From Halomicrobium zhouii (GTDB lineage Archaea; Halobacteriota; Halobacteria; Halobacteriales; Haloarculaceae), in contig NZ_FOZK01000001.1 in assembly GCF_900114435.1 (NCBI RefSeq), positions 310,001-374,000 on the forward strand: a stretch of DNA of 64,000 nt, given 5' to 3'. Shown here one piece after another: positions 36,033 through 60,864 of the stretch. The notes beneath the pieces are model-generated. The model had not been told where the DNA came from. It ran no database searches and worked only from the letters and a program-made list of their open reading frames with translations. A program made the translations under genes and the position numbers. Within the stretch, counting starts at the first letter, position 1, and each line of letters starts with the position of its first letter.

Positions 36033-38048
36033 ATGACGGGTGTGACACCTCCCCGCCGCGCTTCGGACGATTGCCCTCCCGATTCGACACCCGGAACCTG
36101 CACCCGTCGGTCGATGCTCGGCGGGCTCGCGGCCACCAGCCTCGCCACGGCCGCACCTGCCAGTGGTGCCCTCGCCGGGCAGTCCCAGCAGCAGGGGGGA
36201 TCCGGCCAGCAGGGCCAGGCCGCCGACGGCCCGCTCGCCGACCCCGACGCCTTCGAGGCGTTCCTCGACGGCGTCATGGGCGCGCACCTGGACGCTCACG
36301 ACATCGCGGGGGCGACCGTCTCCGTCGTCGACGGCCCGGAGTCGTTCGCCAAGGGGTACGGGTATAGCGACGTCGAGGCCCGTGAGTCCGTCGACGCCGA
36401 CGAGACGATGTTCCGGATCGGCTCCGTCTCGAAGCTGTTCGCCTGGACGGCCGTGATGCAGGGAATCGAGCGGGGCGACCTCGCCCTCGACGTCGACGTG
36501 AACGAGTACCTCGAGGACGTCGAGGTTCCCGACGCGTACGACGACCCGATCACGCTCGACCACCTGGCGACGCACACGCCCGGCTTCGAAGAGCGCGCTC
36601 GCGGGACGTTCGTCCCCGACGCAGAGTCGCTGGAACCCCTTCCGGCTGTCCTGAGTGAAGAGCGACCGGCCAGGGTGCGCCCACCGGGCGAACTCGCCGC
36701 GTACTCGAACTACGGCGCGGCGCTCGCGGGGCACATCGCCGCTCGTGCTGGCGGGCAGTCCTTCGACGACTACGTCGATTCGTCGATCTTCGAACCCCTC
36801 GGGATGGACCGGAGCACGTTCGCCCAGCCGGTCCCCGACGACCACCCGGACACCCTTTCGAAGGGGTACAGGCCCGCGGGCAACACGTTCGAGGCGGGCG
36901 AGTTCGAGTACGTCGGCATTCCTCCGGCCGGGTCGATGAGCGCGACGGCGACCGATATGGTGTCGTTCATGCGCGCGCAACTGGGCGGTGGCGCGACGGA
37001 CGCAGGTCGTATCCTCTCGGCCGAATCGACGGCGGCGATGCACGAACGCCGGTTCACGCACCACGACCGGTTGAACGGGATGTGCTTCGGGTTCTACGAG
37101 CAGTCTCGTAATGGAGTCAGGGTCATCGCTCACGGCGGCGACACGGACCTGTTCCACAGTCTCCTCTTTTTGATCCCCGAGGAAGAGGTGGGCCTGTTCG
37201 TCTCGTACAACAGCCCCGGGGGCGTCCCGGCACGGGAGGAACTCGTCGACGCGTTCTTCGAGCAGTACTACCCGACCGACGAGGAGGCGCCCCAGAACGA
37301 CGGGGACGCGCCGACTCGTGCGTCGGAGTTGACGCGGACGTATCGAGCGACCCGGATGCCGTATACGACCTCGGAGAAGTTCGCCGGCGCGACCGGGACC
37401 ATGTCCGTCTCCGTCGACGACCAGGGCCGACTCGTCACCTCGCCCCTGGGCGGCGAGACCCAGCGCTGGGTCCAGGCCGAGCCGCTGTACTTCGAGGAGG
37501 CCGGCGGCGAGGACGCGCTCGCTTTTCTGGAGGACGACGGCGAGATAACGCATCTGGCCTTCGGCAACCTTCCACCCCTGGCCTTCGAACGCATCGGCGT
37601 CCACGAGCAGACGACCGTTCACCTGTTGGTGTTGGGGGCGTCTCTGTTGGTGTTCCTCTCTGCACTGTTCGGGTGGCCCGCTGCTGCAGGCTGGCGACGG
37701 TATCGTGGGGTTGGTGGGTCTGGTGCTGGGTCGCTGGCTCGCTACGGGCGCTGGGTCGCTGGCGTCGCTGCCGCGGCGTTCGTGGGGTTCTGGGTGGTCT
37801 TCGGCGGGTTCGTGGTGACTGATCCGACGGGATTGCTCTTCGGCGATCCATTGGCGTTCCAGCTGTTGCTGTTGTTGCCGCTCCTTGGAGCGATAGCGAC
37901 CATTGGGACTGTCGGGTTGGCTGTGGTCGCCTGGCGCGATGGCTACTGGGGTCGCTGGAGTCGCCTCCACTACTCGCTGGTGGCGCTCGCGGCTGTTGGA
38001 ATGACGCTGGTGCTGGGGTACTGGAATTTGCTCTGGTACGAGATGTGA
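36033..38048 (+). CDS. Tat-exported serine hydrolase (beta-lactamase/PBP family) with C-terminal membrane anchor
   Basis: 671 aa. A twin-arginine-type leader (TCTRRSMLGGLAATSLATAAP, RR at about 25-26) is followed by a class-C-like serine hydrolase domain: S131-V-S-K134, Y224-S-N226 and H367-G-G. The C-terminal 150 residues contain four hydrophobic helices (from about residue 530), so the enzyme is held on the outer face. Archaeal relatives act as D-aminopeptidases or esterases, since there is no peptidoglycan substrate. A TATA-like tttatgtaa (36014-36022) predicts a start near 36042, where an in-frame GTG lies, so a leaderless start at GTG 36042 is a real alternative to ATG 36033. Confidence 0.88.
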   Translation: MTGVTPPRRASDDCPPDSTPGTCTRRSMLGGLAATSLATAAPASGALAGQSQQQGGSGQQGQAADGPLADPDAFEAFLDGVMGAHLDAHDIAGATVSVVDGPESFAKGYGYSDVEARESVDADETMFRIGSVSKLFAWTAVMQGIERGDLALDVDVNEYLEDVEVPDAYDDPITLDHLATHTPGFEERARGTFVPDAESLEPLPAVLSEERPARVRPPGELAAYSNYGAALAGHIAARAGGQSFDDYVDSSIFEPLGMDRSTFAQPVPDDHPDTLSKGYRPAGNTFEAGEFEYVGIPPAGSMSATATDMVSFMRAQLGGGATDAGRILSAESTAAMHERRFTHHDRLNGMCFGFYEQSRNGVRVIAHGGDTDLFHSLLFLIPEEEVGLFVSYNSPGGVPAREELVDAFFEQYYPTDEEAPQNDGDAPTRASELTRTYRATRMPYTTSEKFAGATGTMSVSVDDQGRLVTSPLGGETQRWVQAEPLYFEEAGGEDALAFLEDDGEITHLAFGNLPPLAFERIGVHEQTTVHLLVLGASLLVFLSALFGWPAAAGWRRYRGVGGSGAGSLARYGRWVAGVAAAAFVGFWVVFGGFVVTDPTGLLFGDPLAFQLLLLLPLLGAIATIGTVGLAVVAWRDGYWGRWSRLHYSLVALAAVGMTLVLGYWNLLWYEM

Positions 38049-39579: not shown

Positions 39580-40893
39580 ATGTCCGAAGGAATTCACGAG
39601 AGCGGCCGACAGACAGATGTCGCGGCGCCGGAATCGACGAATGCCGTCGGTTTCGTCGCGTCCGAAGGGAATAGTGAGGCGCTCGCACGGGCAATATTGC
39701 GTGCGAAAGATCAGGGCTACGAGGTATTCGTAACCAACGACGGCGAGTCCCATGGTGAGGCGCTCCGTTTTGCGGAAACTCTCGGGGCGACCGTTGTTGA
39801 GTTACACGCTGACGAGCCTGACGATAACGCTCTTCGTCAGCGTCTCGCTATTGCAGCCGAGAAGCAAGGACACTCGACGCTTTTCGTCAATCTCGACGTT
39901 TCGGAGCGAATTAATTATGGGCGGAGTGAGAAATTGCTCGAACAGGACGACTTCTGCGTTGACGCTGCCACGCACGAACCGTCCAAAGCCGATTCGCTGC
40001 TTGACAATGTCCTCGTTGCGATTCCCGCCTACAACGAATCCGTTGCGATTGGCAGCGTTATTCACAAGACTCAGCGTTACGTATCGGAGGTTCTAGTAGT
40101 CGACGACGGTAGTGACGACCAAACCGCGGATATCGCGAGGCGGGCAGGCGCTACTGTCATTGAACACGAAGAAAACCGGGGTAAGGGCACTGCCGTCCGG
40201 ACGGTGTTAGACTACGCGACAGAGGGCGACTGGAAGGCCGTGGTCTTACTGGATGGCGACGGACAACACTACCCCGAGGACATTCCGGAGGTCGTCGAGC
40301 CGGTTCTCGATGGCGATGCCGACTTGGTGATCGGAAGCCGGTACGTTGAGACGGCCAGTGACGACGAAACACCGGCCTATCGACGACTCGGTCAGCGCGT
40401 TCTCGATGTCTTGACGATCGGATCTGGCGGTGCGACCGTTTCGGATTCCCAGAGCGGATTTCGAGCGTTATCTGCAAATGCTGCCACTGAGCTCGACATC
40501 CGGACCGACGGAATGGGCGTGGAGAGTGAGATGCTCGGAGACGCGACGAAGCACGAACTCACTGTAGTGGAAGTTCCAATAGACGTTCGCTACGAGGAAG
40601 TCGACGGTCAGACACATAATCCACTTCGCCACGGTGTTTCAGTAGCTGTATTCGTGCTCCAGATGATCCGGGACAGGAACCCGCTGCTGTTCTTCGGCGT
40701 CCCCGCGGTCGTCCTCCTCGTTTCCGGTGCAGGGTTGATGTCCTACAGTGCCTACCTGTACCAGACATACGGGGCCTTTCATCAGTGGCGTTTTCTCATT
40801 AGCGGATTTGTGTTATTACTCGGTACACTGAGCTTGTTTTGCGGACTCGTACTTAGCCAGGTACGGAACATGGTTCTACGTATCGATCCATGA
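39580..40893 (+). CDS. GT2 glycosyltransferase (dolichyl-phosphate-sugar/AglJ-like) with N-terminal extra domain
   Basis: 437 aa from ATG 39580, with aggtgg just upstream; the in-frame sequence back to 39472 is not protein-like. Residues about 145-355 are a GT2 catalytic domain: LVAIPAYNESVAIGSVI, VVDDGSDDQT, LLDGDGQHYPED (metal-binding DxD) and SDSQSGFRAL. Two C-terminal helices (about 370-395, 405-430) anchor it in the membrane. The first 135 residues form a separate alpha/beta domain (GFVASEGNSEALARAILRA...YEVFVTNDG) of unknown role. It probably charges a lipid carrier with the first sugar of the glycan built by the following genes. Confidence 0.88.
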   Translation: MSEGIHESGRQTDVAAPESTNAVGFVASEGNSEALARAILRAKDQGYEVFVTNDGESHGEALRFAETLGATVVELHADEPDDNALRQRLAIAAEKQGHSTLFVNLDVSERINYGRSEKLLEQDDFCVDAATHEPSKADSLLDNVLVAIPAYNESVAIGSVIHKTQRYVSEVLVVDDGSDDQTADIARRAGATVIEHEENRGKGTAVRTVLDYATEGDWKAVVLLDGDGQHYPEDIPEVVEPVLDGDADLVIGSRYVETASDDETPAYRRLGQRVLDVLTIGSGGATVSDSQSGFRALSANAATELDIRTDGMGVESEMLGDATKHELTVVEVPIDVRYEEVDGQTHNPLRHGVSVAVFVLQMIRDRNPLLFFGVPAVVLLVSGAGLMSYSAYLYQTYGAFHQWRFLISGFVLLLGTLSLFCGLVLSQVRNMVLRIDP

Positions 40894-41079
40894 TGCGTCC
40901 GTTGGATATCGGAAATCGTGACATCCACTTTCTCGCTCAAGAGCTTGTGTTGTGTCCGCTAGGGGCACTTGGATGGGAATGGATCGAAACTAACCTGGGA
41001 CAGAAAAAAATATCATTTGACACCTCGGCCACTTTGATGTTCATCTCTCATCCACTCCCTACACAACCAATCGTTAACG

Positions 41080-42096
41080 ATGACTAAGGAAATAAAACAG
41101 CTAGTTCAGAGTATCGGCTATCCGAGGAATGGCTCTTTCGAACACCGGGCGCCGACCGAATCGAAGGACGTCCTACAAGCTGCAGAGCAAAACAAGGTAG
41201 CGAGCCTCTATCTCCGGTCGTTGCACGATCAAGGGGCGCTTGACAAACTAACTGGAGAGTTCGAGAAAAAGCAGCAGTACCAGTCCGATTTTCAACGGAC
41301 CAGTCGGCGGATCAGTCAGATGCTCTCCACCGGAGAGGAGTTCGCACTCGTCAAGTCGATCCATCCGTTCCCGGCGGATGCCAGTGACGTCGACGTTGTC
41401 CTGTTCGACGACCCTGACCTCCACTCCCTCGGGCCGCATCTCGAAGAACAGGGGTATCACGTACTTGGTATCGCCCCCTCGGCGATGACCATTCGAGACG
41501 AAACGACCGGCCAACTTGTCGACCTACAGACCTTCTTCGGCCTCCACAAGGTCGTCTACTACGACATGAAGCATATGCGGGACAACGTCGTCAACCGAAA
41601 GGTAGACGGGGACGTATTGTCGGTCCCGGCGAGACCGTACGATCTCTCCCTTATCGTCAACCACTCGGTGACTGAACTCATGTTCCTCTTGAAGGAGTAC
41701 TACGCGACCGTATTCATGCTTGAGACGTCTGACGAGAGCGACGTGCTTGAGTTCGTTGAGGACGTCCGGTTCAACGATTCGGTCGCAGGCTGTCAGGCCT
41801 TCTTGGCCATCGTCGACTGGATCAACTCCGAGTTCTTCTCCATTGAACCGAAACACATGGACCTGCTCAGAGACGAGATCGGCATCTCGTCACACGAGCG
41901 CGAATACGCCGGCACGCCTCTGGACTTTCCCCACCGCTACTCGAGGCTCTCACTGACTCGCTTCACCGTCGAGAAGTTCAAACAACCTGCATTCAGGGGC
42001 AGTTTCGTCGAAGAACTCCCGTCCTTCGTTCACCCCAGCACCGCAGCGTACATCCTTCGGAAAGTGTACGGAAGAAGTTCGAGGGAGACCTACTGA
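41080..42096 (+). CDS. Nucleotidyltransferase-fold protein in the glycan island
   Basis: 338 aa soluble protein. EFALVKSIHPFPADASDVDVVLFDDPDLHSL has the G/S...DxD arrangement of minimal nucleotidyltransferases, with two Asp in DVDVV as likely metal ligands, followed by a helical region. The overall length fits the uncharacterised nucleotidyltransferase group seen in surface-polysaccharide clusters. The reaction is unknown; transfer of a nucleotide or phosphate to a sugar or lipid is possible. Its stop overlaps the next ATG (TGATG). The 186-base gap before it holds an AT-rich promoter-like stretch (aaaaaaatatca, about 41004-41015) and no gene. Confidence 0.6.
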   Translation: MTKEIKQLVQSIGYPRNGSFEHRAPTESKDVLQAAEQNKVASLYLRSLHDQGALDKLTGEFEKKQQYQSDFQRTSRRISQMLSTGEEFALVKSIHPFPADASDVDVVLFDDPDLHSLGPHLEEQGYHVLGIAPSAMTIRDETTGQLVDLQTFFGLHKVVYYDMKHMRDNVVNRKVDGDVLSVPARPYDLSLIVNHSVTELMFLLKEYYATVFMLETSDESDVLEFVEDVRFNDSVAGCQAFLAIVDWINSEFFSIEPKHMDLLRDEIGISSHEREYAGTPLDFPHRYSRLSLTRFTVEKFKQPAFRGSFVEELPSFVHPSTAAYILRKVYGRSSRETY

Positions 42097-43283
42097 TGGC
42101 CCGGATCCTATTCCTCTGCTCTAGGCCACCGTATCCGCCCGTCGACGGGGCACGCGTTCGGATGTACAACCTGGCGACGCTCCTTGCAGAGGATCACGAC
42201 GTGGATGTCGTCGCTATCTCGAAAGGAGGGGAGTCAGAGCGGCCCGACAACGAATTCAAACGATACAAGGTTTTTACCGAGCATTGGTCGCGGTTCTATG
42301 CACGGGGCATCCGTTCGCTGCTCTCGTCCGATCCGCTTCAGTGTGGAGCGTACTTCTCGACCGACATGAAGCGGTGGGTGGACCGCCACGTCGACGAATA
42401 CGACCTCGTCTACTGCACCCACCTCGCCACTGCAAAGTACGCGACAGACACTGACCAGAAGAAGGTCATCGACTTCGTCGACGCCGTCTCGAAGAACTTC
42501 GAGGAGTTCGTCGACGACTCTTCATATCCCTGGCGGCTAATCTACCGGATAGAGTCTCGCCGCGTCGGACGGTACGAACAGACCGTCTCCTCTCTCTTCG
42601 ATGCCTGCTTCATCACGACGAAGACCGACAGGAGTGCCAGTCAGGCGGAGGACGTCACTGTCATCCCCAACGGGGTTTCACAGGACCTCCTCGATCGGAA
42701 TCGCCACCACCCCGACGAAAACATGATCGCCTTTCTGGGTGACCTGAGCTACCTCCCGAATGCATCCGCAGTCGAGTGGTTCGTCGAGAAGGTAATCCCA
42801 ATACTCGATTCATTTGAGGTCGACTTCTCTTTCCAGATCGTCGGGAAGTCACCGCCACAAAAAATCAGAAAGCTGGGTGAACGCCCTGAGATCGAAGTGA
42901 CGGGCTTCGTCGACGACCCGTACGATTATGTGCAGCAAAGTGCGGTCTCCGTCGTGCCGGTCCAGATCGGCGGCGGTATACAGAACAAAGTTCTCGAAAG
43001 TATGGCTCTGGGAACCCCTGTCGTCACCACGACATTTGGGGCGACCGGTATCGATGCCCGGGATGAGGAACACTTCCTAGTCAGGGACTCGCCCGAGGAG
43101 TTCGCGAACGGCGTTTGTACGCTGTTCGAGGAACCGGAGTTCGCCCGTGAACTGTCCGCCCGAAGTCACGACCTCATCCAGCGAAAGTATACTTGGGAAA
43201 GCATTGGTGAGAAACTCGACAGACAAATAACGGACGTACTCAATCGGGATTGTGAGGAGAGACCGCCCGAAGTGGGAATATGA
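42096..43283 (+). CDS. GT4 glycosyltransferase, TIGR03087-like sugar transferase
   Basis: 395 aa GT-B enzyme. The N-terminus MARILFLCSRPPYPPVDGARVRMYNLATLL and FLGDLSYLPNASAVEWFVEKVIPIL, VVPVQIGGGIQNKVLESMALGTPVVTT resemble the sugar transferases linked to PEP-CTERM/EpsH systems. In GGGIQNKVLESMA the Lys and Glu take the place of the GT4 E-x7-E region. The second half has the Rossmann fold that binds the nucleotide sugar. It is overlapped at its start by the nucleotidyltransferase gene and at its end by the kinase gene, so the three are one unit. Donor and acceptor are unknown. Confidence 0.88.
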   Translation: MARILFLCSRPPYPPVDGARVRMYNLATLLAEDHDVDVVAISKGGESERPDNEFKRYKVFTEHWSRFYARGIRSLLSSDPLQCGAYFSTDMKRWVDRHVDEYDLVYCTHLATAKYATDTDQKKVIDFVDAVSKNFEEFVDDSSYPWRLIYRIESRRVGRYEQTVSSLFDACFITTKTDRSASQAEDVTVIPNGVSQDLLDRNRHHPDENMIAFLGDLSYLPNASAVEWFVEKVIPILDSFEVDFSFQIVGKSPPQKIRKLGERPEIEVTGFVDDPYDYVQQSAVSVVPVQIGGGIQNKVLESMALGTPVVTTTFGATGIDARDEEHFLVRDSPEEFANGVCTLFEEPEFARELSARSHDLIQRKYTWESIGEKLDRQITDVLNRDCEERPPEVGI

Positions 43284-43954
43284 TATCGAGCAATTTCCGG
43301 TCGATCTGTATCATCGGTGCGGACGGAGCGGGGAAGACTACCGTCGGTAACGAGATTGTAGACCAGGTACAGTACTCCGACCGCTCGTATAGATACTGGT
43401 GGTGTGGTTGGCGCGAGTTCCGAAGTTTCCCGTTTCGCGCGGCACGAAAAATCGCGCATCTAACGGGCATCATCGGCGATGATCGGGACCGAGATGCGTC
43501 TAGCACGAACCGTTCGGCGGCGGACCCGTCTCTCTTCACGAAGGTCCTCGGCCTCTTTTACTTCTCGTTCGTCGCCGTCGATCACGTGCTATCAACCGTT
43601 CCCCGGGCTGTAAAATTCGCCCTCGACGACACACCGGTCATTTACGACCGGTACTATTTCGGGATGCTCGTCGGTTTCTGCGCGTACTACTCCTATTCTA
43701 AGCGCGTCGTCGATCTCCTGATGTCCTTTGCAGCCCTCTACCCGTCTCCCGACGTCGTCATCTATCTCGACGTTCCCCCGGAGACGGCATACGAGCGGAA
43801 AGCCGACGTCCCGTCGCCGGAGTACATTGTGAAGCGACGTCAGACGTACCTGCATGTGGTTGACGAACAGATCACGGCGACCGTTGATGCGGGTAACTCC
43901 CAGGAGCAAGTCGTCGCGGACGTCTTGGAAATACTGGAGGAAGACGATGCCTAG
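43280..43954 (+). CDS. Thymidylate-kinase-like P-loop kinase in the glycan island
   Basis: 224 aa. Walker A is GADGAGKTT near the N-terminus. VIYDRYYFGMLVG gives the DRY motif of dTMP kinases, and LDVPPETAYERKADVPSPEYIVKRRQTY corresponds to the LID and nucleotide-contact region. Compared with true Tmk there is a longer, hydrophobic middle segment (about residues 85-130). Its position between two glycosyltransferases, overlapping both, suggests a phosphorylation step in glycan or lipid-carrier metabolism, not DNA precursor synthesis. It overlaps the next gene by eight bases. Confidence 0.8.
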   Translation: MISSNFRSICIIGADGAGKTTVGNEIVDQVQYSDRSYRYWWCGWREFRSFPFRAARKIAHLTGIIGDDRDRDASSTNRSAADPSLFTKVLGLFYFSFVAVDHVLSTVPRAVKFALDDTPVIYDRYYFGMLVGFCAYYSYSKRVVDLLMSFAALYPSPDVVIYLDVPPETAYERKADVPSPEYIVKRRQTYLHVVDEQITATVDAGNSQEQVVADVLEILEEDDA

Positions 43955-45071
43955 GATTGGTATCGCTGGCGATGCCCTTTCGGGGAACACGTCCGGCGTT
44001 GGCAACTATCTGCTGGAACTGCTCCGTCACGGTGCCTTCGACGGTTACTCTGCTACGCTCTACACCAAGGAGCGTCACCAGCAGATTGCCCACATGGACG
44101 GCATAGACGTCAAACCCGTCGACCCGCACAGCGTCTTCAACGCCGTCCCCGACCCGATTTCCCACGTATGGTGGGAGAACGTCGCGGCCGGACGAGCGGC
44201 CGTCTCTGACGATGTTGACCTCTACTTCGGTTCCAACTATCTCGTTCCGTTAACCTTCCGGGAGAAGTCGGTGATAGTCGTCCACGACCTCATCCACGAA
44301 ATGTGTCCGGAGTACCTCCCGAGATCATACGTTTATTACATGAAGGCGCTTTTACCTCGGTCTATCGCGCGAGCCGACAGGGTGATCACGGTGTCCGAGA
44401 GTACCAAGACGGATCTGGTCGACATATACGATGTGGAGAGCGACGCCGTCTCCGTCGCATACGGGTCTGCGAGCGACCGATTCAGTATCGACAACATCGC
44501 TGACACAGAAGGAGCGATTGTTCGCGAAAAATACGGTATCGATGGGAATTTTATCCTCTACGTGGGGAACCTCGAACCGAGAAAGAACGTCCACACGGTG
44601 ATCGACGCACTCGAGCGATTGTCCCCGGAGCAGCGTCCGGAACTCGCAATCGCCGGTCAGAAGTTCCAGGGCTATCCAGAACTCTCGCGGTCTTACGAGA
44701 TGTCGTCGTGTCAGGATGACATTACGTTCTTGGGCTACGTCGACGATGAGGACCTCCCGTCGCTGTACGCGTCTGCGAGGGCCTTCGTTTTCCCATCCTT
44801 CTATGAGGGGTTCGGGCTCCCGTTGCTGGAGGCGATGAAAGCGGGGACTCCCGTCGTGACGTCGGACCGCTCTTCGTTGCCCGAAGTTGTAGGAGATACG
44901 GGGAAGATTGTCGAACCTACCTCGACAGAGGAACTGGCCATAGCTATCCGAGACCTTCTCTCGAAACCGTCAAACGCTACTCTAGCACGTCAGGCCACGG
45001 ATCGAGCGGCGAAATTCTCGTGGGACGATGCGGCAGCGACAGTCAGTCGCACTGTCGACGAGGTAATTTGA
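43947..45071 (+). CDS. GT4 glycosyltransferase
   Basis: 374 aa from ATG 43947, within the end of the kinase gene. The N-terminal domain has GNTSGVGNYLLELL and VHDLIHEMCPEYLPRSYVYYMKALLPRSIARADRVITVSESTK. The C-terminal domain has LYVGNLEPRKNVHTVIDALERL and PSFYEGFGLPLLEAMKAGTPVVTSDRSSLPEV, whose E-x7-E motif (EGFGLPLLE) binds the nucleotide sugar. This is a mannosyltransferase-like GT4 architecture. It lies in the tight gene run from 41080 to 46089. Confidence 0.92.
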   Translation: MPRIGIAGDALSGNTSGVGNYLLELLRHGAFDGYSATLYTKERHQQIAHMDGIDVKPVDPHSVFNAVPDPISHVWWENVAAGRAAVSDDVDLYFGSNYLVPLTFREKSVIVVHDLIHEMCPEYLPRSYVYYMKALLPRSIARADRVITVSESTKTDLVDIYDVESDAVSVAYGSASDRFSIDNIADTEGAIVREKYGIDGNFILYVGNLEPRKNVHTVIDALERLSPEQRPELAIAGQKFQGYPELSRSYEMSSCQDDITFLGYVDDEDLPSLYASARAFVFPSFYEGFGLPLLEAMKAGTPVVTSDRSSLPEVVGDTGKIVEPTSTEELAIAIRDLLSKPSNATLARQATDRAAKFSWDDAAATVSRTVDEVI

Positions 45072-45075
45072 TACG

Positions 45076-46089
45076 ATGACATCCAGAATCTGCTTGGTTG
45101 GCGAATTCGAAAAGGATCCCGACGAAGCGATGCGAAAAACTGCACAGGAGTACGTGGCGCAACTTCAGTCGGAGTTCGACGTACTCCCGATCAATGCATC
45201 GGAGTGCTTCCGCCCGAGCAACGTCCGATCGATCGTCGCTTTTGACCCGGATGCAATCCACTTCATTCCCGGCCCGTCGATCTACAGCTTCGCGTATACG
45301 AAGTTCGTCGGTTCACTCACGGACGCGACCGTGATCCACTCGGCCCCGCATCACGGCTTCCACGACCTTGACGGCGACATCTACTACCAGAGTTCGCACC
45401 GCCTCAGGAAACTCATTCCCGCGCTTCAGCCCGACAAACTGCTCGTTCAATCACCGGAGTCGAAGCAGTTTTTCGAGAAACACGGCGTGGACTGTGAGTA
45501 CCTGTTCTCCGGTGTCTCACTCGACACGCACAAGCCCGTCTCTACCGACAGAAAGACCGAACTCCAGGAGAAATACAATCTTCCTGTCGACGAGCATCTG
45601 ACTCTCCACGTTGGTTCACTCAAAGAGTGGCGTAACATCCCTGTTCTCCCAGACGTAATCGACGAGTCGACTCAGTTAGTCGTCGTGGGGAGCACTGCGA
45701 CTCAGGAAGAAAAGGCGGTCCAGCGCCAATTAGAAGCGGCAGGGGCAATTGTGATCCACGAGTATATAGAGAACATCGAGGAAATCTATTCCGCCGCTGA
45801 TCTGTACGTGTTCCCAACGCAGGAGCAAGTCGCGTGCTGTGACGTTCCGTTGACTGTGCTCGAAGCTATGGCGACAAATCTTCCCGTTCTCACTACCACG
45901 TTCGGCGGCCTCCCGGTGATGTTCGACGAAGGTGACGGGCTGTTCTTCGGTGACGACCCCGATCAGTTATCGACGAAGTTCGACGAGGCCAGGCGGGTTG
46001 AGGAACCGAACACAAGGGAGATGGTCGATCCGTACTCTTGGTCGCAGGCCGGGGAAGCGCTTGCTACCGTTTACAGCCGGTTGTCCTGA
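45076..46089 (+). CDS. GT4 glycosyltransferase
   Basis: 337 aa, starting four bases after the previous stop. GT-B fold with LHVGSLKEWRNIPVLPDVI in the donor domain and QVACCDVPLTVLEAMATNLPVLTTTFGGLPVMF as the GT4 motif region, with the Glu of VLEAMA conserved. The N-terminal half has HSAPHHGFHDLDGDIYYQSS. The Cys-Cys pair (ACCD) where EGFG normally stands is unusual. It is the last gene of the uninterrupted glycosyltransferase run; an 87-base gap with its own promoter follows. Confidence 0.85.
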   Translation: MTSRICLVGEFEKDPDEAMRKTAQEYVAQLQSEFDVLPINASECFRPSNVRSIVAFDPDAIHFIPGPSIYSFAYTKFVGSLTDATVIHSAPHHGFHDLDGDIYYQSSHRLRKLIPALQPDKLLVQSPESKQFFEKHGVDCEYLFSGVSLDTHKPVSTDRKTELQEKYNLPVDEHLTLHVGSLKEWRNIPVLPDVIDESTQLVVVGSTATQEEKAVQRQLEAAGAIVIHEYIENIEEIYSAADLYVFPTQEQVACCDVPLTVLEAMATNLPVLTTTFGGLPVMFDEGDGLFFGDDPDQLSTKFDEARRVEEPNTREMVDPYSWSQAGEALATVYSRLS

Positions 46090-46176
46090 GATGTTTGGGT
46101 ATCCGGTAATGATATCGCAGCCAACTGGTGTCTAAGAATCGACAATTTAAATAACAACTGACTTGATCCTAAAAAT

Positions 46177-47697
46177 ATGAACGGGCGAACAATTGTGATC
46201 GGTCTCGACGGTCTCAGTGAGATGTTGATCGGCCTTGAGGAGACCTCGACGCTTAGTAATCTGTTTGACGAATCGGGTGGAACCCTCTTGAGCACGCTTC
46301 CACCCACTACTGGCCCCGCATGGTCCAGTTTCCAGACAGGGAAGAATCCCGAACGTCACGGTATCTCCTCGCTCATTAACATCTACGAGGCGGAGAACTC
46401 GTACAAGATGCGCGAGTTCTCCGGCGCCGATTTGGCGAGCGAGGCTATCTACGAGTCGTTCGACCACGAAGACGACGACTGTTTCGTGATGAATCTGCCG
46501 TACACCTATCCGCCGCGGATCGACGGTGACGTCGTCACCAGCTGGCTCACGAATAGCGACGACCTCGTCGATTTCATCCATCCATCCGATCTGCGTGATC
46601 GATATCCGAACCTCAACTCGTACTCGCCCCATCCGGACGGCAACTCCGACCTCGCGTTTCTTAAATCACTCCTGTCCATCGAACGCGACCGAATCGAGAT
46701 AACGAAGCAGGTCATAGAGGACGGGGACCACGAATTCGTCTTCACGCTATTCTCGGGCACCGACACGATGCAACATCGCGTCTATTCCGACTTGGCAGGT
46801 CGCGCCTCTACGTCAGAGGCTGACGTCGCCCGTAAGATTCTTCGAGAGATCGACGACTTTATCTCGTGGCTCGTAGATGCGAAGGCCGAAACCGACAATC
46901 TCGTACTGATGTCTGACCACGGGTTCAGGCAGTTCGACGGCTATTTCTCGCTCAACGGCTGGCTCCATGAGAACGGTTATCTCTCGTTTTCGAAGGACGG
47001 CGTTCAGTTCCAAAACTCAAACGACGATGCAACGACTACCTTCGACATCGGTCCGCTGTACGATTTTGTTCGCCGAAATGAAGTATTGATGAACTCACTG
47101 ATGCCGATCTATCGGTTCTTCTCGGACCACAATGTTGAGTTTACCTCCGAGAAAGGGATCGACATGTCAGATACTGAGGCTTATTGCAGACACGATCAGG
47201 AGCAATCGATCTACATCAATCACACGGGTGAGCGATACGAGTCACTTAAAGCACAGTTGATCGATGAACTGAGCGACATCCCAGGGATCAGGCCAGTAGA
47301 TGTGACTTCTGAATATGGGTCGTCTGAAAACATGGGCGACATCGTGGTTCTGGGCGATCGGTATCAGGTGATCAGAGGGGACCGAAACGATCCGATCAGC
47401 GACCGTCCCATCCCCTACCACCATCGTAATGGCGTCGTGATGCTCTTGGGGCCGTCTTTCGAGTCGACGCCCGACGTGATGAACATCGAAGACCTCTACC
47501 CGACACTTCTCCATTTGAACGGGTACGCTGTTCCGGATGACTTGGACGGCCGCGTTATCGAAGAGCATCTCACCACCGAGAGCAACATTGAGTTCCGTGA
47601 TCCACTCTCTTCCGGCGTGGAGAACACTGAATCCGGTGCGGCCGACTCCGACTCGGAAGCCGTTCAGAACCGACTTGAGGATCTCGGCTATCTATGA
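46177..47697 (+). CDS. Alkaline-phosphatase-superfamily phosphodiesterase
   Basis: 506 aa. VIGLDGLSEML opens with the metal-binding Asp; LPPTTGPAWSSFQTGKNPERHGI carries the nucleophilic Thr; LMSDHGFRQFDG supplies the later Asp-His metal ligands. This is the type I phosphodiesterase / nucleotide pyrophosphatase layout. A TATA-like atttaaataa (46145-46154) about 25-30 bases before ATG 46177 suggests a leaderless transcript. It ends in the RLEDLGYL-type tail common to haloarchaeal members. In a glycan cluster it might hydrolyse or transfer phosphodiester-linked groups. There is no signal peptide. Confidence 0.85.
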   Translation: MNGRTIVIGLDGLSEMLIGLEETSTLSNLFDESGGTLLSTLPPTTGPAWSSFQTGKNPERHGISSLINIYEAENSYKMREFSGADLASEAIYESFDHEDDDCFVMNLPYTYPPRIDGDVVTSWLTNSDDLVDFIHPSDLRDRYPNLNSYSPHPDGNSDLAFLKSLLSIERDRIEITKQVIEDGDHEFVFTLFSGTDTMQHRVYSDLAGRASTSEADVARKILREIDDFISWLVDAKAETDNLVLMSDHGFRQFDGYFSLNGWLHENGYLSFSKDGVQFQNSNDDATTTFDIGPLYDFVRRNEVLMNSLMPIYRFFSDHNVEFTSEKGIDMSDTEAYCRHDQEQSIYINHTGERYESLKAQLIDELSDIPGIRPVDVTSEYGSSENMGDIVVLGDRYQVIRGDRNDPISDRPIPYHHRNGVVMLLGPSFESTPDVMNIEDLYPTLLHLNGYAVPDDLDGRVIEEHLTTESNIEFRDPLSSGVENTESGAADSDSEAVQNRLEDLGYL

Positions 47698-48042
47698 CTC
47701 CTGTCTATGGCTTGATAGACTGCTACGTGCCGCTGGGACTCTGGCCCCCATCTTCGAACGCACGTTTGATCACTGAAAACATACCCCCGTGGCAGTCGTT
47801 CTCTCCGAAAGCGTTCGCCGCCGCAAGTGTCGGCCAATCGCCTTCCGTACCGAACCGCCGAACTGTTTTGACAGGGTCTGACTGTGCTTCTTTCACCGAA
47901 TGAATGCTGGATTGACTCGGGATGGAGGTCTGTTCGAAACTCGGAGTGACGGAGAGAGAAACTTTACAAAATACCCGAGAGGAATTACCCGCAGGCACGG
48001 TTGGTCCCTCTCTCGTACTGGACGTCATTCCAGCCACCAGCA

Positions 48043-49467
48043 ATGAACATCGCCAGATCGTCGATCGGTATCTTCGCTGCCAAGGCTTCCATCTCTCTTG
48101 CCGTCCTCTCTAGTACACTCTACGCCGCCCAGACCCTCGGCGCGGCACCGCTCGGAGTGTACTTTCTGTTTCACTCTACGGCAGTGCTCCTATCGACGTC
48201 TACTGATATGGGCATCGTCATGGCCACGAAGAAACGAATCAGCGAGGGTAGCGACCGCGCTAAGTTTTTCACGGCTTCGTTGCTCGTCCGGTCTCTCATA
48301 TTGGTCTTCGTCGCCCTCGCCATTACGCTGTTGAGCGATTACATCAACGAGTACGTCGGGATTGAATCGAGCGCGCTCTTTCTCGTCGGCGTCCTCTTCC
48401 TGTCCGTGCTCAAGATGAGCGTCAAATCGGGCCTTGACGGGGAGATGAAAGTCGTCCGGTCGGCGTTCGTCGGGGCGATACAGGAGTTCGGAAAGTTCGC
48501 GTTCTGGATCGTCGCCATTCAGCAGGGCCTCGGCGAGTTCGGTCTGATAGCTGGTTTAGGGTTTGGTTACGTCATCGCCATCGTCTATGGATTCTTGATG
48601 ATGGACATCGGGCTTGCCGTGCCGAGCTGGGAACAGATCGAGAGTCTTTACGCGTTTTCAAAATTCAGCTGGCTTACATCAATCGCCAACAAGATGTGGA
48701 ACTGGGTGGACGTCCTCGTGCTCGGCCTTTTCGTTGCCTCGAACTTCATCGCTATCTACGAAGTCAGTTGGAAGATAACCGGCGTGTTCTACTTCGCGTC
48801 GGTTGCGCTCTCGGAGGCCATATTCCCCAAAGTCAGCAACTTACATTATCAAGGTAAACACGACGAATCGAGACAGCTCATCAATAGGGCAGTCACGTAC
48901 TCCGGCGTCCTGGTCATCCCGGGCATCGTCGGGTCTATCTTCTTGGGAGAGCACGTACTCGCGGTATACGGTGAGGAGTTCTCCGCAGGGTACGAGATTA
49001 TGGCAATTCTCATGGTCGGCCGTATTTTCCACTGCTACTACTCGGTGCTCGCGTTCACGCTCAACGCAGTCGACAGGCCGGACCTGGCGTTCCGGATCAA
49101 CGCCGTGTTTCTCGTAACGAACGTCATCGGCAACTTCGGCCTCGTCATGGTGATGGGATGGACCGGAGCAGCGATAGCGACCGCCGGTTCAATGCTCGTT
49201 TCGCTCGGCCTGGCGTCCACGTACATCAAACAGATCGTCAACGTCGGGATCGATTACCAGGCTATCAGCAAGCAGATCGTCTCTGCGACGTCCATGGGCC
49301 TCGGACTGCTCTTGTTCCAGCGACTTTATTCGATTGACTCGCTTCCGTTCCTCGCGGTGGCCGTGGCCGCCGGCGGTGCCATCTACTTCCTCTCGCTGTC
49401 TTTGTTACACCGCGATGCGGTTGTGGCATTCGTCGAACGGTACCAGCCTATCCGCCGAAACACCTGA
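48043..49467 (+). CDS. Wzx-type polysaccharide flippase (AglR-like)
   Basis: 474 aa from ATG 48043 (MNIARSSIGIFAAKASISLAVL). Twelve to fourteen hydrophobic segments with the MATE/MVF-superfamily look of O-antigen flippases; charged residues are few and lie in loops. It should move a lipid-linked glycan across the membrane. A promoter-like aaactttacaaaat (about 47961-47974) lies about 70 bases upstream. The 345-base gap before it has only non-biased frames. No polymerase-like Wzy is evident, although the AT-rich membrane protein at 52237 could be one. Confidence 0.9.
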   Translation: MNIARSSIGIFAAKASISLAVLSSTLYAAQTLGAAPLGVYFLFHSTAVLLSTSTDMGIVMATKKRISEGSDRAKFFTASLLVRSLILVFVALAITLLSDYINEYVGIESSALFLVGVLFLSVLKMSVKSGLDGEMKVVRSAFVGAIQEFGKFAFWIVAIQQGLGEFGLIAGLGFGYVIAIVYGFLMMDIGLAVPSWEQIESLYAFSKFSWLTSIANKMWNWVDVLVLGLFVASNFIAIYEVSWKITGVFYFASVALSEAIFPKVSNLHYQGKHDESRQLINRAVTYSGVLVIPGIVGSIFLGEHVLAVYGEEFSAGYEIMAILMVGRIFHCYYSVLAFTLNAVDRPDLAFRINAVFLVTNVIGNFGLVMVMGWTGAAIATAGSMLVSLGLASTYIKQIVNVGIDYQAISKQIVSATSMGLGLLLFQRLYSIDSLPFLAVAVAAGGAIYFLSLSLLHRDAVVAFVERYQPIRRNT

Positions 49468-49830
49468 GTGAACGGCGGTAATCCAGAGATCGTCAACTTA
49501 TCCCCGCTGCTATCTGCAGCAAGTAGGTATCGTGTCGAAACCGACGCTCGCTGCGACCAATATCGCGGGAGCTGTCGCTGAGGGCGGAAGTGGGTCCAGG
49601 CCGAAAGTTACGGTTTCTTCTCGGTGGCACGAACTCCGTGGGCCGTGATAGCCTTGGTCTTCCAAGAACCTCTCATAAGATACCGATAATGAGGGCAGAA
49701 AATCATTACCGGAATTCAGCCACTAATGCGATAAAGGAACGGAATTATCCCCCCTTCACTCGCTTACTAGAATCAATTATGATATTGGATGGCGTTAGTT
49801 ATGCACCAGGACTCCAATCGATACTCATCT
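49468..49830. other. Intergenic region
   Basis: About 360 bases. No gene. It includes an imperfect symmetrical stretch around 49675-49707 (ataagataccgataatgag) and a TATA-like attatgata at 49776-49784, which would promote the DUF457 gene. Confidence 0.5.
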
Positions 49831-50415
49831 ATGATGCCATGGGGTCACTTTGCCGTCGCGTTTCTCCCGTTTCTCACCTACAGACTTCTGCGACAGCAGC
49901 GACTACCGAGTCGCAGGGTGACGGTGTTTCTCTTCGTCGCAACCCAGCTCCCTGACCTCATCGACAAACCGCTCGCATGGGGACTTCATGTCCTTCCCTC
50001 GGGCCGGTCGTTCGCCCACTCGCTACTGTTCGCGGTTCCGCTTGTTATTGCAGTCACAATATTTCTCACACGTGGCGACCGGGCGACGCTTGGTGCGCTC
50101 TTCACTTTTGGGTATCTGTCGCATGTGTTCGCTGACATCTACGACCTGCTCCTCACCGTCCCGCCCGATCAGTGGCAGACGACCTACGTCGCGAGTTTGT
50201 ATTGGCCTCTCGTTGCTATCCCCGCTCCGGAGCCGATGCCGTTCGTCTACTATTTCACGCGCATCTCGCCGACTCGGTACGCACAGGGCAGTCTCGGCCT
50301 TGCGTTATTCGCCGCGTTCTTCTTCTACCCGGAGCTCGCGGCGGCGGTCGGAAGACGCCAGTCTCCCGTGAAACTTCCGACCGACGAAGAGCCCACAGCA
50401 GCGAACGAACGCTAG
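49831..50415 (+). CDS. DUF457-family membrane protein (YdjM-like, putative metal-dependent hydrolase)
   Basis: 194 aa from ATG 49831; in-frame ATGs at 49801 and 49789 are upstream alternatives, but MMPWGHFAVAFLPF is the usual family start and fits the TATA at 49776. Motifs WGHFAVAFLP, ATQLPDLIDKP (Pro-Asp-Asp type), SFAHSLLF and YLSHVFADIYD carry the His/Asp residues conserved in the family. Four or five hydrophobic helices. Members are inner-membrane proteins whose reaction is not established. The C-terminus is polar. Confidence 0.8.
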   Translation: MMPWGHFAVAFLPFLTYRLLRQQRLPSRRVTVFLFVATQLPDLIDKPLAWGLHVLPSGRSFAHSLLFAVPLVIAVTIFLTRGDRATLGALFTFGYLSHVFADIYDLLLTVPPDQWQTTYVASLYWPLVAIPAPEPMPFVYYFTRISPTRYAQGSLGLALFAAFFFYPELAAAVGRRQSPVKLPTDEEPTAANER

Positions 50416-50510
50416 TTCGGGCGACACATTGTTTTCTCCCGTGAGTTCGCCGGTGGCGGGAGCGAGAGTGATCGCAGGGCCGAATACGTTGACCGAGGCG
50501 CGAGGCGTGT

Positions 50511-51659
50511 TTACTGGATGTAGCCCAGGTCCTTCAATCGGTCCCGGGAGGTGTCTGATAGGGCGCTCTCTTCGGCCTCGCGGGTCTGAATTGTCTTCCT
50601 GATGTCGTCGATTTCGTTCTCAGCCGCGGACGGTGAGATTGGCGGATCCCCGAATGTGTGTGAGGTATTTATATAAGTTTTAAGCAGGGACATCGGGTCT
50701 GACCACAATGCGGGTTTTTCTGCGCTTCGCGTCATCATATAGATTGCCAGTAACAGTCGCTCAGTTCGTCGGTTCGTTTGTCGACTGTATCCGGCGTTCT
50801 CCCACCAGATACTGTCTGCGGTATAGAACGTCATACCGTTCCGGGTTGATCGAGCAAAATTATAGCCCCACTCTCGACTCCGCTCGTCTGTGAACAGATC
50901 CGCACCGGCGGTCTGAAAGTCGTCAGTGAATCGCCGTGCAATCGTCTCTACGACGTCCACATGCTCGATGATCCCATTCGATTCCACCGCAGTCTCAACG
51001 TCGTCCGTTCCTCCGGGAGTCATCATCACTGTAGGGACGTACACAAGTTCGGGGCAGGCAGGAAATGTGTGAACGACGTCACCGTACTCCCCGAGGAGTT
51101 CACCGTGGTCGCTGGTGAAGACGAACATCGTGTCATCCTCATCGAGCGTGTCCTTGATCTGCTCCACTCGACTTTGAAACTTGGCAAACGAACGCTCGGC
51201 CGCCGCACGGTAATCACGCTGTAGTTTCTCGTAATCGCCGCCGATTCCGTCGAAGTATTCCGCTACGGAGTCGTACCCGTTAAAGGGGACGTGAGGCGTC
51301 ATATCCCGTTCCATGTAGAAAAACGGCGTCTCCAGTTCGTCGAGATTGGTCTTTCCCTCTACGGACACGGCATCGTATATCGGATCTGCAGCCGAACCAC
51401 TCTTCTGGAAGAAACCGGTCGAGACATCCTCCAAGTCGAAGAACGTCTTCACACCGTCCGGGAACTGCTTCGCCCAGCCGGTCACGCCGTGTTGCTGCGG
51501 ATACAAACCGGTCGCCAATGTCGCGAACGATGGGGGCGAGTAGAGGGACTGCGCTACCGTTTTGAACACTACGCCATCCGACCCTGCAGCTTCAGGGAGA
51601 GCGTCCCACCGAAGGCTGTCGGCGACGAAAATATACACGTTATTTATTTCTTCCATCAT
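50511..51659 (-). CDS. Sulfatase-fold enzyme lacking the formylglycine signature
   Basis: 382 aa alkaline-phosphatase-superfamily protein. NVYIFVADSLRWDAL gives the first Asp; FVFTSDHGELLGEYG is the sulfatase-type DHGE block; TPHVPF and HTFPACPELVYVPTVM also fit. At the active site the expected C/S-x-P-x-R reads S-P-P-S-F, so the Arg needed for formylglycine formation is gone. The enzyme is therefore more likely a Ser-based phosphatase or phosphotransferase than a sulfatase. The C-terminus RLKDLGYIQ resembles the tail of the 46177 enzyme. There is no signal peptide. It is convergent with the DUF457 gene. Confidence 0.8.
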   Translation of the reverse strand: MMEEINNVYIFVADSLRWDALPEAAGSDGVVFKTVAQSLYSPPSFATLATGLYPQQHGVTGWAKQFPDGVKTFFDLEDVSTGFFQKSGSAADPIYDAVSVEGKTNLDELETPFFYMERDMTPHVPFNGYDSVAEYFDGIGGDYEKLQRDYRAAAERSFAKFQSRVEQIKDTLDEDDTMFVFTSDHGELLGEYGDVVHTFPACPELVYVPTVMMTPGGTDDVETAVESNGIIEHVDVVETIARRFTDDFQTAGADLFTDERSREWGYNFARSTRNGMTFYTADSIWWENAGYSRQTNRRTERLLLAIYMMTRSAEKPALWSDPMSLLKTYINTSHTFGDPPISPSAAENEIDDIRKTIQTREAEESALSDTSRDRLKDLGYIQ

Positions 51660-52236
51660 GAATGATCTCTAGGTAACGAATTAGTGACCGTATATCCTTG
51701 TCTGTCAACCCAAGTGACCTGTCTGACAAAGTACTTGTCGTACCTACTATGGAAAAAGGTTGCCTTGCACCCCGAACTATCCGGAAAGGAGAGGTATTTA
51801 AAGCCCGGATTACCTCTTTAACGATACCTTAGGCAAAGCGAGTCACTGGGTATGGCGCTCACTGGGGCACTTTCGGCGTTCTTACTAGTGTCCACCCTGA
51901 ATACTTAGTTGGCACGACACGTCTTCATCTCGTAAGTCTTTGCGTTGTTGTTGAAATTCTATTACTCGCAGTTTGTATGACAGGGGTGAAACCACCTTAT
52001 CAGCGTGTGGTTCCACTATCTACGACACCTGGTTTTGCCTCACTCGGTTGTTTGTCGTTACCCCCCTCCCCGAATCAAGCCAATGTGACAGAATTGTTGA
52101 TTTTGATCTGCCGGGCCACGGTGAACTAACCCAGAGAGTACAACTCAAGGGCTGAGTCACTAAATTACTCATCTAACTCTTCACCAAATATCTTGTCACT
52201 TTTCGCGAAGCAAAATAACAATCATATACGCATTCC
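51660..52236. other. AT-rich intergenic region
   Basis: About 580 bases with no gene. It holds a strong promoter-like box (ggtatttaaagccc, 51791-51804) on the plus strand with no convincing reading frame behind it, and an atata box at about 51690-51694 suited to the minus-strand sulfatase-fold gene. Composition drops sharply from here to about 54.7 kb. Confidence 0.5.
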
Positions 52237-53829
52237 TCATTTACTGGTTTGATTCTCTTCAATCCTATAATAATCAGACATGCCGTCTGAATATACTTTC
52301 TGTAGTTCCGTGTTTGCTTGGATTTCAGCGTGGTGGGTATTGAGCGGTTCGTACTGGATATTGAGATGTTCTCCCTGCACCACTACTTCTTTACTGCGCA
52401 TATCGGCGACCATGTAGTCTGCAGATCCTGATACGGACTTATTATCACCAACAAGTGCTGCGTAGTGGTCTGCGTTGATTGATACGGACTGAAAATTTTC
52501 CGGTGAAGCGATGTAGTTGAAATAATAGAATAGGTGACTACTCGACATCACAGAAATATCCTGATATGGGTCGTGCTGCGCATACACTGAGAACCAGCGG
52601 ACGCCTGGCTCAATTAGTGAGTAACGTCTGTAGTAGATATCAAATTGACCGAGCCGAAGTATGACAGATACGGCAGAAAGCACTATCAAGAAGACCAGGA
52701 AGCCCACAAATACCTTCTTTCGTTTTGTAATTTGATCAAGTGCGAGAAGACCCAATATCGGGCCTAAGAAGATGAGCGGTTGGGTGCTCAGGCTAAACAC
52801 GATCCCGTAGACCAATGCGTGGAAAAAGAGGGTGCTCACGAGGCCGACATAGACGTAAGTGGGAAGTTCAATGCTGGGTTTTGATGCCCTGATCCCCGCG
52901 ATAATCCGCTTTATCACGAATGGTGCAGAAAGAAGAATAACACCAGCAATGAGGACGTTGATCGCTAACCTTACTCGGCTGTAGATCGGGCTCCCTGCAG
53001 CGACTTGGTACTTTGAAACCGCTGAAGTCTCGCCAACAATCATAGACATAATCTGCACGATGAATATCTGGACTGGGTTCGAATGAGTTTCCTGCTCAAC
53101 CATCGCAAATAAAGAGGGAAGGAATGTGTCGTAGATAATTCGCGTAGAGCCGATATAAGCACTCATCATTATTACAAAACCAAGTGCAAGGTATTCGGTC
53201 CAGGGTTGGCCGTCGAGATATCCGATAATTAGTACTGTACCGGCAAACAATATCAGCCAAGCTTCAGGAGTATAATGCAACCAAGGGAGCGCAGCCACCA
53301 TGATACCGAAGAGGTAGAGATAACGGTTGTCTATACGATTCTGAGAGGACGCCAATCCACTAATGAGAATTACCAAACACAGGAGGTAGAGCGGTCGTGC
53401 CCATGCATACGCGAACACGCTGTGCCACGCGGTTTCGGTGATGTGAGTTAAAATATAGAACGTGCATGCTAATGCGACCAGTTTTGTCCCGAACAGAGAA
53501 CGTGTAACAGCATAATAAATGAACGGGCCAATAAGGATGCCAATGGGTAAAACGACTACAAGCTCGGGCGATACGCCGAGAATTAACCGAAAGATAGAGA
53601 GGATGACTATATAGCCAGGGTTATTCCCGTCACCAGAAAGGTGGCCTGTCTCCATGATGTGGTCTGAATAAACTAAGGTACTCCAGATAAACTCGCTAAT
53701 CACTTCGTTTTGCGCTAAAAAGGCTCCAATCGCGGTTGAGATGAATGTTAGGACACATAAAATTTTGAGGGCCGTTGCGCGCCTCATCTCCTCACCGGCC
53801 AGAATTCGGATATCTAAATCTCTAACCAT
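52237..53829 (-). CDS. Polytopic membrane protein, possible polymerase or glycosyltransferase, strongly AT-rich
   Basis: 530 aa from ATG at 53829 (MVRDLDIRIL). About eleven or twelve hydrophobic helices end near residue 390, followed by a soluble tail of about 140 residues (YYRRYSLIEPGVRWFSVYAQHDPYQDIS and onward). This shape, with a loop after the first helices (VYSDHIMETGHLSGDGNNPGY), recalls GT-C membrane glycosyltransferases; the D-H in the first loop could be catalytic, but the family is not certain. The stop of the upstream small membrane gene lies two bases away. Base composition and codon use differ strongly from the core genes, which points to recent transfer. Confidence 0.7.
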   Translation of the reverse strand: MVRDLDIRILAGEEMRRATALKILCVLTFISTAIGAFLAQNEVISEFIWSTLVYSDHIMETGHLSGDGNNPGYIVILSIFRLILGVSPELVVVLPIGILIGPFIYYAVTRSLFGTKLVALACTFYILTHITETAWHSVFAYAWARPLYLLCLVILISGLASSQNRIDNRYLYLFGIMVAALPWLHYTPEAWLILFAGTVLIIGYLDGQPWTEYLALGFVIMMSAYIGSTRIIYDTFLPSLFAMVEQETHSNPVQIFIVQIMSMIVGETSAVSKYQVAAGSPIYSRVRLAINVLIAGVILLSAPFVIKRIIAGIRASKPSIELPTYVYVGLVSTLFFHALVYGIVFSLSTQPLIFLGPILGLLALDQITKRKKVFVGFLVFLIVLSAVSVILRLGQFDIYYRRYSLIEPGVRWFSVYAQHDPYQDISVMSSSHLFYYFNYIASPENFQSVSINADHYAALVGDNKSVSGSADYMVADMRSKEVVVQGEHLNIQYEPLNTHHAEIQANTELQKVYSDGMSDYYRIEENQTSK

Positions 53830-53830
53830 A

Positions 53831-54172
53831 TTATAAGAATAATTCAACGCGTGTTTTGAGAATAATTCCCATAGCGATGCCTGCAATACCCGTTGAAAGT
53901 CCAATGATGTATTTGAGACGGGTCCTCCTCTTACTCACAAAGCTCCCATAATGAGAATAACTTACCAAGAGAAAAATAAAGTACGATATTATAGTGTAAC
54001 GGGGCATTGTGAATTGATTAAAGACTACGAGCAAGAGGAGACAGGCCAGCATACTACAAATGGTCTGTAGGATAAACACCTCGCTGTGAGGAGCCATAAT
54101 TAGTGTAATCTCTACTGAAACTATAAATATACCGTTATACCACGCTTCTGCCCTTCCGGCAGGTAGTGCCAT
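53831..54172 (-). CDS. Small membrane protein paired with the AT-rich polytopic protein
   Basis: 113 aa with three hydrophobic helices: about residues 34-52, 58-75 and 88-105. A basic loop (SKRRTRLKY) lies between the last two. MAPHSEVFILQ (ATG at 54097) is an alternative, shorter start. It ends one base before the next gene's ATG, so the two are expressed together. No family was recognised. It shares the same low GC content. Confidence 0.6.
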   Translation of the reverse strand: MALPAGRAEAWYNGIFIVSVEITLIMAPHSEVFILQTICSMLACLLLLVVFNQFTMPRYTIISYFIFLLVSYSHYGSFVSKRRTRLKYIIGLSTGIAGIAMGIILKTRVELFL

Positions 54173-57360: not shown

Positions 57361-57838
57361 CCTCGTCACCGAGTTTCAGTCAATCAGTAATAAATCCACG
57401 GCTCTTGAGATTTAACAAAGTAGCAGGATCCTTCGACAAATGAAACAAATTGCAATCCACTGTCAGTACTGGGCGGGGGCAGCCGATATCTCGACTTCTT
57501 GGGGGCGACTAACGCTTCTCCATTCCCGATCCGAGTTCATCTTGGGGGAGCACACACCGCTTCTCTACGCCGGGACTCACGTTTTCTAGTTCCCCCACAG
57601 GGCCGGGAGCGGCCGCGAACCGACCGCAGTTGCTTTGACGGCTTTTCGACAGAGGGAATTTCACCACGCGATCAGGGGCAGGGCAAAGTCTGTGGTCCCC
57701 TGAAGGGCATTCGTCGTGTGGGGAGTCGTGATAGCAACGCCGAAACGCACGCGGAGGACGTTGCTTTCTTCATCTCACTTTCTTCGACGAACCACCGCAA
57801 CCATCAAGGTCATTCCTGGAATAATGATTATCGAGATA
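57361..57838. other. Intergenic region before the split ATPase
   Basis: About 480 bases. After the zinc-finger promoter nothing coding is seen. The stretch aaggtcattcctggaataat just upstream of 57839 is AT-rich and could hold the ATPase promoter. Confidence 0.4.
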
Positions 57839-58372: not shown

Positions 58373-58510
58373 CAAGTCGCAGTGCGGAAACCCACGGCTT
58401 GAGCCGTGGGAGGAAGCGCGTCTACACTAGATACAATCCACGGGCAATGCCAAGACCAACTCCCCGACACGGCCTTGATTTTAAATATTAACACGGAACC
58501 AATCTGGCCT

Positions 58511-59764: not shown

Positions 59765-59777
59765 GGGTGGGTTCCTG
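59640..59777 (+). ncRNA. Probable omega RNA (guide scaffold) at the right end of the TnpB element
   Basis: By analogy with characterised TnpB elements the omega RNA overlaps the 3' end of tnpB and finishes at the right-end boundary, with the guide taken from the adjoining host DNA. Here the terminal stem (59753-59772) would lie directly before a guide that begins about 59778. The exact 5' end cannot be read. Confidence 0.45.
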
Positions 59778-60641: not shown

Positions 60642-60864
60642 GCTCCCTGGAGGACTGAATGGGCGAGATGCAAGGGAAGATGGAGTTCGCTGCTGAGTCA
60701 TATCATCTCTTGCAATAGCTGGCCTGGATGAGAAAGAGCGACGGAATATCACTTATTCGTTGCATACGAATTTTTAAATGCAAACAAGGGGCTGGTAAAG
60801 GGGCACAGCTTGCATTCACTCCCGCCAAATTCATGTGGCTTGCCGAGAGAAGGTAATTGCGTAC

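Follow-up and report, generated by a model that had tools for sequence, protein, structure and literature searches.

A haloarchaeal glycan-assembly island with an embedded pair of a divergent nucleotidyltransferase and a thymidylate-kinase-fold kinase

Positions 39580-54172 of the window (the whole 64,000-nucleotide stretch of Halomicrobium zhouii DNA analysed here) are supported as an accessory glycan-assembly island in a high-GC halobacterial genome (4.25 Mb, 6 contigs). A nucleotidyltransferase (NTase) and a kinase of the thymidylate-kinase (TMK) fold are embedded in the island, and the association of two such enzymes recurs in the glycan clusters of other genomes. The pair may form a module that makes a phosphodiester-linked substituent of the glycan, which we hold with slightly less than even confidence. 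The region contained the following features:

39580-40893, plus strand: GT2 glycosyltransferase (PF00535, 1.4e-27) with C-terminal membrane segments and an additional N-terminal domain
41080-42096, plus strand: nucleotidyltransferase of the NTP_transf_5 (PF14907) superfamily, by profile comparison and alignment
42096-43283, plus strand: GT4 glycosyltransferase, nearest model TIGR03087 (XrtA/PEP-CTERM systems)
43280-43954, plus strand: TMK-like P-loop kinase of the thymidylate-kinase fold (PF02223, 6.8e-12)
about 43944-45071, plus strand: GT4 glycosyltransferase, ATG at 43944, 11-base overlap with the kinase
45076-46089, plus strand: GT4 glycosyltransferase, counterpart in the G256 cluster (31% identity, 5e-52)
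46177-47697, plus strand: alkaline-phosphatase (AP)-superfamily enzyme, phosphodiesterase/nucleotide-pyrophosphatase-like (PF01663)
about 48046-49467, plus strand: MurJ/Wzx-type flippase (MurJ, 3.3e-7)
49789-50415, plus strand: YdjM-like membrane protein (PF04307)
50511-51659, minus strand: AP-superfamily protein of the sulfatase fold, lacking CxPxR in its sequence
52237-53904, minus strand: large membrane protein without a family assignment, GC 0.44-0.46
53831-54172, minus strand: short membrane ORF of no family, overlapping 52237-53904 in a different frame

All genes named in an earlier note on this DNA were found in place by family matches and open reading frames. The genes from the GT2 to the flippase lay on one strand in the order GT2, NTase, GT4, kinase, GT4, GT4, AP-superfamily enzyme, and flippase. 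From the NTase through the last GT4 they were spaced by -1, -4, -11, and +4 bases, which makes the NTase, GT4, kinase, GT4, and GT4 one tight five-gene operon; the AP-superfamily enzyme started 87 bases after the last GT4, and the flippase 348 bases after that enzyme. The NTase and kinase had been described as lying in overlapping frames: they do not overlap each other, and each overlaps the intervening GT4, by 1 and 4 bases. The island genes are real rather than chance reading frames, since the NTase has a full-length, 34-35% identical homologue in another genus. The GT2 was akin to AglJ (TIGR04182, 170 bits, missing the cut-off of 325) and to PpgS, and the first GT4 scored 267 bits against TIGR03087, under the cut-off of 317. 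No oligosaccharyltransferase was found in the island; TIGR04154 matched only at C3:185378 and C1:762126, both outside it. The designation as a glycan island was borne out, and the NTase-kinase pair is a recurrent unit of surface-glycan clusters.

The genes further to the right were assigned less firmly. The YdjM-like protein is probably just adjacent to the pathway genes and no component of the pathway, and the opposite-strand genes at 50511-54172 may or may not belong to the island. It is uncertain whether the sulfatase-fold protein belongs to the pathway; as the earlier note had it, the formylglycine Arg is missing, with SPPSF at the position of the C/S-x-P-x-R motif of sulfatases. The AT-rich membrane pair was likewise seen (52237-53904 and 53831-54172, GC 0.44-0.46). 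By eye only, the larger protein resembles a GT-C-type enzyme, and the short ORF is possibly its frame-shifted N-terminus, that is, one GT-C-type gene with a frameshift.

GC content was 0.44-0.57 across 39580-54172 vs about 0.69 in the first 28 kb of the window. The drop started at approximately 29 kb (from about 0.69 to 0.44-0.65), with the exception of the region at 36033-38048; the beta-lactamase-family membrane protein encoded there had a normal high GC amid the low-GC stretch, which suggests that the stretch is a mosaic. A PIN-domain gene (29254-29733) and CheW-like/MCP genes (30069-31645, minus strand) lay at its left border. To the right of the island genes, an archaeal ATPase gene (57716-60641; ATPase_2 part 57716-58402, DUF234 part 59802-60641) appeared to be split by a TnpB-type IS605 gene (58406-59764), and a SoFic-like Fic protein adenylyltransferase was encoded at 60835-62046 (PADLOC SoFic, 1.8e-96).

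The window NTase alone had no convincing match in Pfam or NCBIfam. Across 392 genomes of the order a single close relative was found, in G256 (35% identity, 1.3e-60), and that homologue scored just under the 31.2-bit cut-off of PF14907 (29.2 bits, 8.7e-7). A profile of the two was compared with canonical haloarchaeal PF14907 proteins (hhalign probability 97.5, E 5e-12); judged by these profiles, the window NTase is a divergent NTP_transf_5 (PF14907) member at the superfamily level. K92, D103, D105, and D148 were invariant with four aligned relatives, and the DxD metal-binding pair and the neighbouring Lys were retained; the Lys and Asp residues that catalysis should require are kept in the alignment. 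The gene was missing from all six other genomes of the genus searched and is therefore accessory. A genome scan using the window NTase returned zero further relatives, and plasmids likewise yielded none. Single-sequence AlphaFold models, made without an alignment, were uninformative (mean pLDDT 34.8 and 41.8).

The kinase carried the motifs GADGAGKTT and DRYY. Against the thymidylate kinase model TIGR00041 it scored 57.0 bits and did not reach the curated cut-off of 83.25. It lacked the REP and AYQ motifs, which were found in each of the ten housekeeping haloarchaeal Tmk compared, the host's own (C1:1071592) among them. In the tree, the ten Tmk formed a separate clade (support 100/100) and the cluster-borne kinases fell outside; the exact position of the window kinase was unsure because of long branches. 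It is probably a TMK-fold kinase other than dTMP kinase. Most kinase matches in the family were left out as relatives, being housekeeping-Tmk-like (those checked were Tmk).

A search for the gene pair in other archaea, as suggested earlier, found NTase and kinase together in four other haloarchaeal genomes (G256, G001, G046, and G224) and fused in three more. G256 was found via the NTase, G001 and G046 via the kinase, and G224 and the three fusions (G157, G019, and G166) via PF14907. The kinase of G256 was located about 2 kb from the NTase, together with the same GT4 and a flippase. G001 and G046 had NTase, kinase, and flippase in a row, with NTase and kinase directly overlapping; having been retrieved through the kinase, these two loci give independent evidence for the NTase only. 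Their flippases were 34-35% identical to that of the window. The two genes also overlapped in G224, and in G157, G019, and G166 they formed one protein of ~500 aa. By our own estimate, which assumes about two such kinases in 3-5 Mb and a distance within a few kb, the probability of such a kinase neighbour by chance is well below 1% per genome. None of 30 canonical haloarchaeal PF14907 loci had a TMK-like kinase within 1.5 kb, so the pairing is no rule for the whole family. Of 315 genomes sampled from the phylum, one had the fused protein (threshold 1e-5), which makes the fused form sporadic in archaea.

A different kinase type was seen in the G075 and G162 clusters, which have AglB-like genes: NTP_transf_5 stood beside an HprK-like kinase, whose resemblance to HPr kinase was by motif only (Pfam and PDB gave no match). 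Tandem NTP_transf_5 genes with HprK-like kinases were observed at L076 9731-14948 and L075 8616-10927, in haloarchaeal clusters with AglB-like genes.

In bacteria, a fused NTase-kinase annotated as 'hypothetical protein' was found in an exopolysaccharide cluster of a Chelatococcus plasmid; it adjoined a tyrosine-kinase gene, with a flippase gene nearby. A public-genome scan (one genome per species) returned 111 relatives, and 80 loci were kept (L103-L182). They spanned Chloroflexota, Pseudomonadota, Planctomycetota, Bacteroidota, Bacillota, Cyanobacteria, Nitrospirota, Acidobacteria, and others. In 76 of the 80 loci the neighbourhood included GT4, GT2, or flippase genes, vs 0 of 20 control regions, a rough control, as these were arbitrary haloarchaeal regions and the cases were mostly bacterial. 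Pfam analysis of two fused loci placed an O-antigen ligase, a sugar transferase, an acyltransferase, and several GT4 around the fused gene. In an alignment of 62 single-ORF fusions, the NTase Lys/Asp, the P-loop, DR, and an Arg hardly varied, which suggests that both halves are active. A second kinase-like gene with a P-loop, of AAA_33 type and usually adjoining the fused gene, was counted in ~69 of the 80 loci and in 50 of 53 long loci, a few matches being the fused gene itself; the bacterial module may thus have three activities. No second P-loop kinase was found in the window, unlike in most bacterial fused loci.

The window kinase aligned with the C-terminal half of the fused family (hhalign probability 98.9, E 3.6e-17), as other TMK-fold kinases probably would equally. 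The window NTase and the NTase half of the fused proteins each relate to PF14907 but were not significantly aligned with each other (hhalign probability 1.8); split and fused proteins may therefore represent two distinct pairings. The kinases of split pairs also did not group with the fused kinases in the tree, on long branches. The NTase-kinase module has a wide distribution in bacteria and a sporadic one in haloarchaea. The kinase-NTase link is strong and is the part of the island that deserves attention.

The phosphodiesterase-like and sulfatase-like genes contribute little to the argument for a phosphoglycan. AP-superfamily enzymes (PF01663, sulfatase fold) do not in themselves imply cleavage in the glycan, and the phosphodiester cleavage read from them earlier was not upheld. 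Related haloarchaeal clusters commonly had such genes (by reading, the G256 region has four and G075 two), and the PF01663 enzyme of the window had two related proteins in the G075 cluster. None of the 80 fused-gene loci had a PF01663-like gene of the G075 type, which places AP-superfamily genes outside the shared module.

In the proposed pathway, the GT2 and the three GT4 would probably assemble a polyprenyl-linked (dolichyl-linked) oligosaccharide on the cytoplasmic side of the membrane, and the flippase would turn the carrier-linked oligosaccharide outward, as judged from their families. The TMK-fold kinase would probably transfer phosphate from ATP to a hydroxyl, either on the nascent glycan or on its carrier-linked sugar. 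The NTP_transf_5 enzyme would then act on this phosphate and add a nucleotidyl group or, as reported for PsmN, a hexose, and the product would be a glycan with a phosphodiester-linked substituent. We infer acceptor, donor, step order, and product, and the kinase was placed first by analogy with pseudomycoidin, in which PsmK phosphorylates the C-terminal serine and PsmN is needed for 1-2 hexoses on that phosphate (PMC9266682). According to the review, PsmN perhaps acts only indirectly (PMC9266682). Ruminal lasso-peptide clusters often carry an HPr kinase together with an 'uncharacterized nucleotidyltransferase' (PMC7533575). By analogy with this lasso-peptide pair, the nearest precedent from experiment, a phosphate-containing glycan is plausible and the likeliest outcome; the phosphoglycan of the earlier note stands to that extent, and the pair could instead make an activated precursor. 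The claim of an undescribed pathway was narrowed: the cluster is of a known glycan kind and carries an undescribed module. We also tentatively suggest that kinase and NTP_transf_5 enzyme constitute a module shared by archaea and bacteria, fused or split and frequently accompanied in bacteria by another P-loop kinase, which attaches sugars or nucleotides through phosphodiester bonds to lipid-linked surface glycans, and that the window holds its split haloarchaeal form.

The main rival, which we consider rather unlikely, is that the pair synthesises an activated precursor: a small molecule (a sugar, alditol, or similar) would be phosphorylated and joined to a nucleotide, as by the bifunctional kinase/nucleotidyltransferases HldE and FKP, and transferred by a GT4. 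Kinase and NTase in one protein are a typical layout for precursor synthesis, the second P-loop kinase-like gene of the long bacterial loci fits a multi-step small-molecule route, and the island had no recognisable nucleotide-sugar enzyme. HldE and FKP, however, have other nucleotidyltransferase folds, and NTP_transf_5-type enzymes generally modify groups on larger acceptors. Moreover, the one studied system, PsmK/PsmN, works on a phosphopeptide (PMC9266682). The sequences are compatible with both glycan phosphorylation and precursor synthesis.

It is improbable that the kinase recycles nucleoside monophosphates freed by the glycosyltransferases or the NTase, the module having only a supporting role: its TMK fold is that of nucleoside monophosphate kinases, but the loss of REP and AYQ speaks against this role, and the NTase fusion and the link to glycan clusters would be left unexplained. 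A regulatory pair, phosphorylating and nucleotidylating a protein that controls glycan synthesis, would resemble bacterial capsule tyrosine kinases, and kinases of that role are often found in glycan clusters, for example beside the Chelatococcus fused gene. As Chelatococcus holds both proteins, their roles probably differ, and PADLOC yielded only weak, partial kinase matches for the pair; we regard regulation as improbable too. A role in anti-phage defence was dropped, having no real PADLOC support. Supply of PAPS-like sulfation donors, analogous to ATP sulfurylase and APS kinase, was rejected as highly improbable: known haloarchaeal N-glycans are sulfated (PMC11980604, PMC4022621) and one Chloroflexota locus has two sulfotransferases near the fused gene, but sulfotransferases are rare near the module, being detected in just 9 of the 80 fused-gene loci and neither in the window nor in the related haloarchaeal clusters.

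Exopolysaccharide and glycan clusters of many phyla thus regularly include a protein that is annotated as 'hypothetical' or 'dTMP kinase'. Should the module produce groups linked by phosphodiesters, something would be missing from the chemistry of many predicted surface polymers, and phosphate could accompany the known sulfate in haloarchaeal glycans. The fused bacterial form offers an easy route to testing the chemistry in culturable strains.

Among known systems, housekeeping Tmk shares the fold, P-loop, and DRY motif with the window kinase and differs in REP/AYQ and in clade. The haloarchaeal Agl N-glycosylation pathways (Haloferax volcanii and Halobacterium salinarum) resemble the island in having GT2/GT4 enzymes, a flippase, and presumably a dolichol carrier; unlike them, the island is without AglB, which sits on contig 3. 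The Agl-pathway glycans described so far carry sulfate (PMC11980604, PMC4022621), and no kinase/NTase pair was found in the described haloarchaeal Agl pathways. No description of the NTase-kinase module was found in open-licence papers. Among the XrtA/PEP-CTERM-type exopolysaccharide clusters of Proteobacteria, one has a fused NTase-kinase beside glycosyltransferase, O-antigen ligase, flippase, and export genes, and the GT4 at 42096 is nearest to the TIGR03087 model of those systems; unlike in those clusters, exosortase, ligase, and export genes were not recognised in the window. PsmK/PsmN differ from the window pair in their peptide substrate and gene neighbourhood, and PsmN is likened to the NTase by description rather than by sequence. 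PsmK is an HprK-like kinase and not of the TMK fold. The likeness lies in a kinase followed by an annotated nucleotidyltransferase, and there a hexose ends up on the phosphate.
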